Source of the DNA: a virus
Direction: 5' to 3' (one strand)
Length of the DNA stretch: 35,843 bases
IMG/VR virus record: IMGVR_UViG_3300042890_002086
Coordinates: 1-35,843 of that record
Both the position numbers and the translations under genes were made by a program. The notes below the pieces were generated by a model. The model did no database searches, was not told where the DNA came from, and saw nothing but the letters and a program-made list of their open reading frames with translations. Each line of letters begins with the position of its first letter. The first letter of the stretch is position 1. This document shows, in pieces, positions 730 through 35,843 of the stretch.

Positions 730-839
730 GTTCGGATTTGTCCGGATTTGTCCAATCCGGACATTTCCGAACGGTCAAATTGTTCGGATATGTCCGGGTG
801 TGCTTAGCACCCGGACATCCGGACAGACCCGGACATTGG
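730..839. repeat. Two nested palindromes built on TCCGGA / GGACAT motifs; operator or origin candidate
   Basis: Two large inverted repeats sit side by side. In the first, GTTCGGA (730-736) and GTCCGGATT (740-748) are mirrored exactly by AATCCGGAC (754-762) and TCCGAAC (766-772), with a 5-nt centre. In the second, ATGTCCGGGTG (790-800) pairs perfectly with CACCCGGACAT (808-818) around a 7-nt loop, flanked by further TTCGGAT and ATCCGGAC elements. One more CCCGGACAT lies at 828-836. No T-run follows either hairpin, so a simple terminator is unlikely. The site lies between the helicase stop and the Shine-Dalgarno of the next gene, which fits an operator for a dimeric regulator or an iteron-type replication site. 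The function is unknown. Confidence 0.75.
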
Positions 840-857
840 TTCAGACACGGAGGAAGC

Positions 858-1061
858 ATGAGGTACAAGACAAGTCCGTTGCGCCGTGTTGCTTTGTCGC
901 AACATAGCGCAGATACGCCACTAGCCCGGCGGATGGTCGAGGGACTGGGACAGGAAGGGTTCCAGGTCGCCAAGACCCTGCAGGCTCACTTCGGCGCCAA
1001 GGTCGTCCACTACCAGGACGCCAAGGGCGAGGTCGGCACCGACCCGAGGTGGCCGGCGTGA
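858..1061 (+). CDS. Small hypothetical protein, 67 aa
   Basis: An unrecognised small protein beginning MRYKTSPLRR. I chose ATG 858 because CGGAGGAAGC lies just before it, a strong Shine-Dalgarno sequence; longer in-frame starts at 738 or 725 would run through the palindrome array and are unlikely. The N-terminus is basic, and the rest has a short helix-prone part (residues 20-45) and a polar tail. No domain, membrane segment or cysteine motif is visible. It is the first gene after the palindrome array and overlaps the next gene by the GTGA pattern, so it probably heads a small operon running into the terminase genes. Being real is supported by the ribosome binding site and the tight coupling only. 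Confidence 0.6.
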   Translation: MRYKTSPLRRVALSQHSADTPLARRMVEGLGQEGFQVAKTLQAHFGAKVVHYQDAKGEVGTDPRWPA

Positions 1062-2934: not shown

Positions 2935-3079
2935 GCGCAAGTGCTTGATTCGCAAGGGGTTGCGGCGCGTAGTGCGTATAACACCCATTATGTTAAATCG
3001 GGGCGATTGTGACCGCCCTGCGGACAGACTCCCCCCTTCGACGACGGGGCGCGCGTAAGTGCTTGATTCGCAACGGGTT
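2935..3079. repeat. 27-bp direct repeat bracketing the dif-like site
   Basis: Copies at 2935-2961 and 3053-3079 share 25 of 27 bases, including an exact 17-mer (AAGTGCTTGATTCGCAA) at 2939-2955 and 3057-3073. They lie 118 bases apart on the same strand, with the dif-like site between them, 10 bases from the left copy. This placement suggests binding sites for accessory proteins or a replication protein; a recombination scar is an alternative. Confidence 0.7.
2971..2998. promoter_or_regulatory. dif-like XerC/XerD recombination site (candidate attP)
   Basis: The site has 11-6-11 architecture. The right arm TTATGTTAAAT (2988-2998) is identical to the XerD-binding arm of E. coli dif. The left arm AGTGCGTATAA (2971-2981) matches the E. 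coli XerC arm GGTGCGCATAA at 9 of 11 positions. The six-base centre is CACCCA (2982-2987), unlike the TGTATA of E. coli. It is the only such site I found. Because no integrase is encoded, the site could allow host XerC/XerD to integrate the phage at chromosomal dif or to resolve circular multimers, as in filamentous phages and ColE1-type plasmids respectively. Confidence 0.8.
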
Positions 3080-3081
3080 CC

Positions 3082-33839: not shown

Positions 33840-34438
33840 CCCGGCCATCGAAGGCGGCAGCCACAGCGGCCATCAGGGAACTGATAGACCGTCAGCCCTA
33901 CGATGCCCGATGGTCGGACGCAGATCGGGAGGAGCTTTGCCGCCTGACCGGCTCGGAACTGGCCGCGGTATTTCGGCGCAGGAATGTCGCCTTCCCGAGC
34001 GACACCAGGCACCTACACGCCGCAAGGCCGGGAGAGTCGGAGCCATCTCAATGGTCGTGGCGCAACGCCCTGACCCTGTTCTATGCTCGTGACCCCGAAG
34101 CTGGCGAACTGGCGCGGCGCCGGAACAGGGACATTAAGACCTTGCGCACTGCCATCGCGGAGGAGCTGCGCACCGCGCGCGATCTCATTGGCGCGACAGC
34201 CTGCGCGGCGTGCGGCGGCGCTGACGACTTGACCGTCGATCACAAGGAACCGCCGTTCATCAACATCGCGGCAGCATTCCTCGAGGAGCGTGGTCCGCTG
34301 CGCACGCGGGAAGTGCAGGGCGCCGGGGCGTGCCTGGAGCACGAGCAATTCACGGAATGGCTGGAGTTTCACGCCAGCCGGGCCACATACCAGTTACTGT
34401 GCCGGTCGTGCAACAGCAGGAAAGGAGCGCGAGCTTGA
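33836..34438 (+). CDS. HNH-type nuclease-like zinc protein, 200 aa
   Basis: The N-terminal half is helical and basic (DADREELCRLTGSELAAVF, KTLRTAIAEELRTAR). The C-terminal third shows a zinc-supported HNH arrangement: CAAC (Cys123, Cys126), then TVDHKEPPFI (Asp135, His136) and CRSCNSRKG (Cys189, Cys192, Asn193). The D-H-K-E-P-P-F stretch is like that of DUF3223 and related HNH proteins. It may cut host or phage DNA, for example as a homing-like or packaging-linked nuclease. It starts by overlapping the regulator stop and its own stop overlaps the TTG of the primase-helicase. Activity is inferred from the motif. Confidence 0.65.
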   Translation: MTRPSKAAATAAIRELIDRQPYDARWSDADREELCRLTGSELAAVFRRRNVAFPSDTRHLHAARPGESEPSQWSWRNALTLFYARDPEAGELARRRNRDIKTLRTAIAEELRTARDLIGATACAACGGADDLTVDHKEPPFINIAAAFLEERGPLRTREVQGAGACLEHEQFTEWLEFHASRATYQLLCRSCNSRKGARA

Positions 34439-35843
34439 CCACCAAGACCATCACCCGCGCCGGCGACCCCGGCCCGCTCATCACCTACACCGTCTTCCCG
34501 GACGTGTGGCCGAAGGCCAAGACCGAGCACGCCGACGCGCCTTGGGTCGAGCTCGTCCGCACCCTCGCCAACCCGCCCGCCTACATGTCGAAGGCGGCCT
34601 GCCCGCTGCTCTCGCTCTGCGAGTACGGCGACAACCTCTCGGACAAGGGGTATCTCCGCCACGCCGGGAACGTCGTGCGCGTCCACGGCGTCGAGGTGGA
34701 CTACGACGGCGAGGTGGTCACCCCGGAGGAAGGGCAGGCGCGTCTACAGGCCGCCGGGCTCACCGCCGTCATCTACACCTCGGCGTCCTACACCGAGGGC
34801 GCACCACGCTGGCGCGCCATCCTGCCGCTCTCCGAGGCCGCCCTGCCGGCACAGCGCGCCACCTTCGTCGCGCGCGCCAACCGCGCCCTGGGCGGCATCG
34901 CCTCCCGCGAATCCTTCACGCTCTCGCAGTCGTTCTACTTCGGGCAGGTGCGCGGCGCACGGTACAAGTTCCTCGAGACGCACGGCCGCTGCGTCGATCA
35001 GGCCGTGGACCTCGAACCGCTCTTCCACCAGGCACAAGGCACCGACCCCAAGACCGGGCGCGATACCCGCAGCAACCAGCAGCTCCTCGAAGCATTCAAC
35101 CGCGGCGAGGGCCGCTACGAGGCCATGCTCAAGCTCTCGTCCCGCTGGGCCGCGCGCGGGATGCCCTACGACGACATCGTGGCCGCGCTCGACGACCTGC
35201 TCGCCAACGGCACCAGCCTCAACGGCGACGGCATCGACCTGCGCACGCGCATCGAGCCGATGGCCGCCAGCGCCGTGCGCAAGTTCGGCGGCACCGTCCC
35301 GGACGTGCGCATCAGCGCACCTGAGCCGCCGGCAGACCTGCCAGACATGCCGCCACCCGAGGCGTGGCAGGACGCGCCGGAGGCGCATGGCATGACCCGC
35401 AGCCACGAGCCCGACGCGACGATGCTGACGGGCGGCGTCAGCGGTGCCACGCCCGGGCTGCGCGTCGAGCTGCGCCACGTCGCCGACATCGTGGAGGAGA
35501 ACCGCGAGCCGGAATGGCTCCTCCACCACGTCATCGAGGCCAAGGTCGTGGCGGTTCTGGCGGGTCCGCGCGCGAGCTTCAAGAGCTTCATAGCCTTGGA
35601 TTGGGCCATGCGGATCGCCGTCGCCGGTAACCCGGTGGCGCTCCTCTCCGGCGAGGGCGGCGGCCTCGGGCGGCGCGTCAAGGCGTGGATGCAGACCTTC
35701 GGCGGCGGCCAAGACCTGCGCAGCCTGCCCATCCTCGCCCTCGAGCGCCCCCTCAACCTCAACCGCGACGAGGAGATGGCACTCCTGGTCGAGGCCATGG
35801 ACAAGGCCGGCATCCGGCCGACGCTGGTCGTCATCGACACCCT
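34435..35843 (+). CDS. Bifunctional primase-helicase, N-terminal part (continues at window start)
   Basis: Translation starts at TTG 34435, which overlaps the upstream stop (TTGA), and runs in frame to the window end, then on through 1-728 for 669 residues. The first 170 residues resemble a primase-polymerase-type domain: acidic VHGVEVDYDGE (Glu87, Asp89, Asp91), then VIYTSASYTEGAPRWRAILP, a pattern of phage and plasmid primases. The RepA-like ATPase follows with the P-loop GPRASFKS (residues 377-384), where Phe replaces the usual second Gly. It probably primes and unwinds DNA for host polymerase. The gene is split only because the circular genome was opened inside it. Confidence 0.85.
   Translation, partial: MTTKTITRAGDPGPLITYTVFPDVWPKAKTEHADAPWVELVRTLANPPAYMSKAACPLLSLCEYGDNLSDKGYLRHAGNVVRVHGVEVDYDGEVVTPEEGQARLQAAGLTAVIYTSASYTEGAPRWRAILPLSEAALPAQRATFVARANRALGGIASRESFTLSQSFYFGQVRGARYKFLETHGRCVDQAVDLEPLFHQAQGTDPKTGRDTRSNQQLLEAFNRGEGRYEAMLKLSSRWAARGMPYDDIVAALDDLLANGTSLNGDGIDLRTRIEPMAASAVRKFGGTVPDVRISAPEPPADLPDMPPPEAWQDAPEAHGMTRSHEPDATMLTGGVSGATPGLRVELRHVADIVEENREPEWLLHHVIEAKVVAVLAGPRASFKSFIALDWAMRIAVAGNPVALLSGEGGGLGRRVKAWMQTFGGGQDLRSLPILALERPLNLNRDEEMALLVEAMDKAGIRPTLVVIDT
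35717..35843. repeat. Right copy of the 127-bp terminal direct repeat
   Basis: Identical to 1-127 and inside the primase-helicase gene. Removing one copy gives a closed circle of 35,716 bp with an uninterrupted reading frame. Confidence 0.9.

Follow-up and report, generated by a model that had tools for sequence, protein, structure and literature searches.

A candidate self-recognised replication origin directly behind the RepA-like primase-helicase gene of a freshwater phage

IMG/VR virus record IMGVR_UViG_3300042890_002086, a DNA stretch of 35,843 nucleotides that is called the window here, carries a 110-bp array of repeated words at positions 729-838. The array belongs to a freshwater phage and begins where the stop codon of a RepA-like primase-helicase gene ends. 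It is putatively the phage's own replication origin, read by the phage's own primase-helicase, and we put the probability of this reading at about 0.8. The likely reader of the repeated word is the C-terminal winged helix of that protein, as judged from sequence comparison and a structure model. Mechanisms of this kind are known. The new elements are the helicase family, the switching of the word and a hairpin that stays constant, and no account of such arrays behind RepA-like helicases was found in the literature.

The array consists of nine copies of the word GTCCGG/GTTCGG, arranged as two groups of forward-then-inverted copies, and a small TTA-loop hairpin. The word order is forward-forward-inverted-inverted, then forward-forward-hairpin-inverted-inverted-inverted. 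The first group has the plus-strand words GTTCGG (start 730) and GTCCGG (start 740) with a period of 10 (730-745), followed by the minus-strand words CCGGAC (757) and CCGAAC (767; together 757-772), which form a two-tier palindrome with the forward pair. The second group has the plus-strand words GTTCGG (782) and GTCCGG (792; together 782-797) and three minus-strand words starting at 811, 819 and 829 (811-834). A preliminary description of this DNA had reported two nested palindromes. Both are confirmed in arms and coordinates, and they turn out to be the halves of one array. In the first palindrome the outer arms are 7 bp long (GTTCGGA, 730-736; TCCGAAC, 766-772) and the inner arms 9 bp (GTCCGGATT, 740-748; AATCCGGAC, 754-762). 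The second has a perfect 11-bp stem (790-800 and 808-818), outside of which lie single words at 819-824 and 829-834. Its hairpin reads ATGTCCGG-GT-GTGC-TTA-GCAC-CCGGACAT (790-818). Viewed as iterons, the words fall into two sets (730-772 and 782-834) separated by about 10 nt, with no long AT-rich stretch between them. The guanine-cytosine (GC) content is 53% in the array against 67% in the genome, and there are no DnaA boxes inside the array.

Could such an arrangement arise by chance? The 11-bp stem alone proves little, because 0.25 perfect inverted repeats of this length are expected in such a genome (probability of at least one, 0.19). The density of the word is another matter. Six exact GTCCGG/CCGGAC sites lie within 111 nt, compared with a mean of 2.35 and a maximum of 4 in 200 first-order Markov simulations, a test for which the word was picked after the array had been seen. 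The local counts of 6-mers and 7-mers at the array were never equalled in 300 dinucleotide shuffles. The convincing proof that the array is real is its conservation across relatives.

The preliminary description had proposed looking for the array at the same place in related phages, and it is there. In every fetched relative with readable downstream DNA it follows the stop codon of the helicase gene directly, or 15-25 nt later in the GTACGAAA class. The word itself is not constant. Five words occur among 81 distinct loci: TGTCCGGA (10 loci), TGTCCGAA (40), TGTTGGAA (1), GGTCAAAA (13) and GTACGAAA (17). Word positions are nearly the same from one relative to the next, and where the word differs the bases of the palindromes still keep their symmetry. 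All copies within an array switch word in concert. Nine copies switching together point to one trans-acting reader, since neither independent mutation nor RNA pairing would produce this. Tandem words occupy a single place per genome in nine genomes of 33-37 kb. A scan of species-genome proteins found no relative, a pattern scan of species genomes gave nothing but a chance site, located in front of recA in a metagenome-assembled genome of Kofleriaceae, a search of phage DNA with the first 3.2 kb of the window matched only the DnaA boxes described below, and a search of Rfam gave nothing beyond one chance microRNA match.

The proposed reader is the C-terminal domain of the primase-helicase, 70 residues encoded at 516-725 on the plus strand. 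AlphaFold models it as a winged helix (H-H-H-E-E) with a mean predicted local distance difference test score of 91. The VIA-align matches were among winged-helix domains, several of them from MCM and ORC proteins, with middling Z scores; the best was the winged-helix domain of MCM8 (Z 8.7). For the modelled domain this supports a common winged-helix fold and no particular family. Foldseek matches were all weak (best E value 0.04 in PDB and 0.01 in BFVD), and a sequence search of solved structures gave no match.

The recognition helix, RSSVHEAVEKLV (model residues 42-53, encoded at 639-674 on the plus strand), varies together with the word from relative to relative. The helix is RSSVHEAVEKL with TGTCCGGA (10/10 loci), RQSVHDAVE[KN]L with TGTCCGAA (40/40), RHSVHDAVEKL with TGTTGGAA (1/1), KQSVH[KR]AVE[AM]M with GGTCAAAA (12/12) and KTTAH[TA]AAE[SGA]L with GTACGAAA (17/17). 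Locus L163 was excluded from this comparison as its frame is shifted in the helix region. In other words, inside the window's phage family this third helix matches the word without exception. The relatives were also sorted into two types of ATPase core, I and II. Between TGTCCGAA loci across the two types, identity is 63% in the core, 77% in the C-terminal domain and 99% in the helix. Within type II, the three larger classes with differing words share 82-83% of the core, 50-58% of the domain and 36-64% of the helix. Within type I, the corresponding values are 93, 76 and 81% for TGTCCGAA versus TGTCCGGA, and 90, 84 and 98% for TGTCCGAA versus TGTCCGAA. Therefore, the C-terminal domain goes with the word and not with the ATPase core. 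This co-change, together with the kept place, supports the earlier proposal of a candidate origin recognised by a replication protein encoded upstream. The YdaS-like and zinc-ribbon proteins, which were proposed there for gel shifts as well, are probably not the reader.

Arrays of the same kind occur in cultured phages whose RepA-like helicases are only about 30% similar to those of the window's family. The words are CGTGACA in Rhizobium phages 16-3 and RHph_X2_25, GGCTGGA in Roseobacter phage CRP-406, CTACAAA in CRP-811 and CRP-823, GTATAAA in CRP-821 (all three Roseobacter phages), TGGTTCA in Alteromonas phages XX1924 and PB15, CGGTACA in Idiomarinaceae phage 1N2-2, GGGGACA in Salicola phage CGphi29, TGGGACA in the environmental phage ct3Oc712 and TCGGACA in Vibrio phage 1.210.O, whose array lies about 0.85 kb behind the helicase gene. 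Compared with shuffles, these arrays have higher word counts (p 0.003 or less). In phage 16-3, 13 of the 17 copies of GCGTGACA in 60 kb fall within about 330 bp. A hypothetical protein is annotated over the array in the public record of CRP-406 (L322, 2454-2780); this is probably no real gene. The roseophages also offer an independent second case of co-change between word and domain. CRP-823 and CRP-821, isolated on one host strain, are 96% identical in the core and 71% in the C-terminal domain, and their words differ. CRP-823 and CRP-811 have the same word and are 99% identical in the core and 98% in the domain.

One part of the array does not follow the word. In all 32 hairpins listed from the window's family and the cultured phages, stem sequences differ, pairing is kept and the loop is short and TA-rich, mostly within CTTTAG, CTATAG or CTTAG. 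The hairpins were collected by inspection, those of the TGTCCGAA class being checked one by one, so that this is a description and no blind test. Since the loop is constant while words change, a second, word-independent function is suggested. Priming is the natural guess, by analogy with the stem-loops of RSF1010 and pRN1 (PMC4234260).

A change in GC skew near the array had been suggested as a further check, and in the window the polarity does change there. Skew at third codon positions of same-strand genes was used because the detrended skew of whole genomes was inconclusive in several relatives. In the window, plus-strand genes left of the array have a skew of -0.072 and those right of it one of +0.032 (p 0.002); of 143 possible cuts, the array is the third best. 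A flip at this site is seen in five of the 12 genomes, the window included; the other four have p values of 0.001 to 0.022 and place the array at ranks 1 to 5 among about 145 cuts. The minimum of the detrended skew lies 76 bp before the array in the window, and within 2.8 kb upstream in 10 of the 12 genomes.

In place and parts the array resembles known self-recognised origins, those of SaPI and pRN1, and this is one reason for the origin reading. The Rep protein of the Staphylococcus aureus pathogenicity islands (SaPIs) uses its C-terminal domain to read iterons directly downstream of its gene (PMC7581432, PMC6092414). SaPIs and other phage-inducible chromosomal islands (SaPIbov1, SaPI5 and those of E. 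coli) resemble the arrangement proposed here from sequence and model in that an initiator helicase reads iterons by its C-terminal domain, in having two sets of short iterons, as in the window's array, and in an origin directly 3' of the helicase gene, if the array is indeed an origin. They differ in their helicases, which are of the DUF927 or D5/Primase_Cterm type and not built on an AAA_25 (RepA/RecA-like) core. They are also satellites, whereas the phages described here are autonomous, and here every array has a TA-loop hairpin, without a long AT-rich stretch between iteron sets.

In pRN1 the origin is directly downstream of the gene for a Prim-Pol helicase with a C-terminal winged helix (PMC4234260). 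pRN1 and Bordetella phage BIP-1 resemble the window in a primase-helicase with a C-terminal winged helix, a predicted one in the window, in an origin within about 150 bp downstream of the gene, if the array is one, and in a stem-loop kept in shape but not in sequence (PMC4234260). However, their helicases belong to superfamily 3, not AAA_25, and their origin is a stem-loop of about 100 nt without iterons, whereas the array described here is made up mainly of iterons and has only a small hairpin. According to the summary in PMC4234260, the alpha protein of phage P4 likewise unites primase, helicase and winged-helix origin binding, with repeats as its targets; its primase is of the bacterial type, and it was compared by description only. 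The same summary describes oriV of RSF1010 as having iterons, small priming stem-loops and a RepA helicase. There, three separate proteins (RepA, RepB' and RepC) are involved, whereas here primase, helicase and reader would be in one protein. No solved RepA structure was matched by sequence search, and kinship to RSF1010 RepA is conjectural.

Initiation might then proceed as follows. The C-terminal winged helix would bind the repeated word, and the forward and inverted sets would orient helicase units oppositely, allowing a bidirectional start. The ATPase core would then melt the DNA and priming would begin near the exposed TA-loop hairpin. Origin specificity would be switched as a single module made up of the 3' tip of the gene and the array directly behind it.

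Several observations do not fit easily with this origin reading or weaken its support. L291 and L321, which are more diverged, use the word TCCGAA although their recognition helix is a different one. These two loci led to the rejection of a strict residue-to-base code, and a simple code of word and helix fails outside the window's phage family. In L291 the array (1527-1665) lies after the helicase gene but in inverted orientation. The domain adjoins the array, and joint inheritance could give part of their association. Recombination that moved both together is part of the history, as would be expected of a specificity module too. The codon-3 skew shows no significant change at the array in 7 of the 12 genomes, and gene orientation and shared ancestry may explain part of the signal from the skew minimum, related genomes not being independent. 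A cluster of DnaA boxes at 2837-2879 could be another origin. Finally, no convincing array stands beside the helicase gene in phages Gustav, Zemanar, Dove, Caulobacter RW, ctyzp037, AAM37 and Kc166B, nor, judged by eye only, in NS-I; ct76p945 and a Salmonella prophage stretch (L334) were left uncalled. Arrays behind RepA-like helicase genes are thus not universal. In Kosakonia phage Kc166B a CTCTAAAGAG hairpin is found directly after the helicase gene (L330, 2763-2893), with no repeated word adjoining.

What if the array acts on transcription instead? The preliminary description had also considered that the array might be the operator of a small operon that runs into terminase. Such an operator, possibly an autoregulatory one, would be bound by the primase-helicase's own winged helix or by some other repressor. 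Palindromic repeats between two co-directional genes, the second of which is small and has a good ribosome site (858), are what it might look like, and binding at an origin may additionally repress passing transcription. However, members of the small gene's family (858-1061) stand behind arrays with four different words, and one word can also have a different gene behind its array (L030, L120). With gene family and word uncoupled, the array is unlikely to be an operator dedicated to the terminase operon. Nor was a sigma-70-like promoter found in a scan of 600-1000, which did not cover other promoter types, and the word array is single-copy per genome. A terminator, or another RNA hairpin ending the primase-helicase transcript, would account for hairpins directly after the stop codon whose stems vary with complementarity kept, and phage 16-3 has four T behind its hairpin. 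Nevertheless, there is no T-run behind the hairpin in the window or in most relatives, and the sole terminator-like site that a scan of 600-1000 gave (628-641) falls within the gene. RNA pairing needs neither a common word in nine copies nor its concerted change. The array is not an intrinsic terminator, and the notion that it merely ends transcription is extremely improbable. The inverted array of L291 weighs against operator and terminator alike, being easier to reconcile with a site that acts as DNA than with one that acts in the transcript.

It is also conceivable that initiation takes place elsewhere, for instance at the DnaA boxes, and that the array serves partitioning, incompatibility or copy control, or is an accessory site like crr of P4. 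Plasmid iterons double as copy-control elements. The window has four tandem DnaA boxes (TGTGGATAA) at 2837-2879, in the gap that precedes the gene for the large terminase subunit and about 2.1 kb downstream of the array. However, tandem DnaA boxes were detected in 4 of 12 related records and not found in the other 8, whereas the array is always present, and five genomes have their best skew cut close to it. A purely accessory role is accordingly very unlikely.

The surrounding genes complete the picture. The first and last 127 bases of the window are identical (1-127 and 35717-35843), and with this terminal direct repeat the window is a closed circular phage genome, of 35,716 bp when the repeat is counted once. 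The primase-helicase gene spans the circular junction. It begins close to the opposite end of the window (open reading frame 34330-35841), and its C-terminal part occupies 3-728 on the plus strand, with the stop codon TGA at 726-728. A Pfam search identifies the helicase core as AAA_25 (E 2e-27), and complete relatives carry an N-terminal module of primase type on this RepA-like helicase. The module comes in two unrelated forms on one helicase core. Relative L026 (2678-4726) has Prim-Pol (E 3.5e-27) and PriCT_2 by Pfam, and L005 (2605-4719), the form matching the window, has another N-terminal domain with no Pfam match. On the 3' side of the array follow the small gene (858-1061, plus strand; 67 residues, no family, GGAGG ribosome site), a RusA-like gene, a zinc-ribbon gene and the genes for the small (2328) and large (3203) terminase subunits. 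Two copies of AAGTGCTTGATTCGCAA[G/C]GGGTT, at about 2938-2966 and 3053-3081, lie in the gap before the large-subunit gene and are possibly a packaging site or a second regulatory site.

What would a self-recognised origin of this kind mean? Most phages outside the model systems have unmapped origins. In our estimate the chances are even that the RepA-like primase-helicases of many tailed phages represent an undescribed class of self-recognising origins, with a phage-specific word, an exchangeable winged helix and a shared priming TA-loop hairpin (CTTTAG/CTATAG). The search rule would be simple, namely a repeated word and a TA-loop hairpin after a RepA-like helicase gene. If the idea is true, the word can be used for locating origins and for predicting their specificity from sequence, and phages with a common host can, through word switching, copy their DNA without drawing on one another's initiator. 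Reader, target and natural switched pairs are visible from sequence, as five words in one family and a second switch in the roseophages, and origin specificity and the possible competition of co-infecting phages thereby become testable. Each phage type seems to hold its own lock and key for the copying of its genome.
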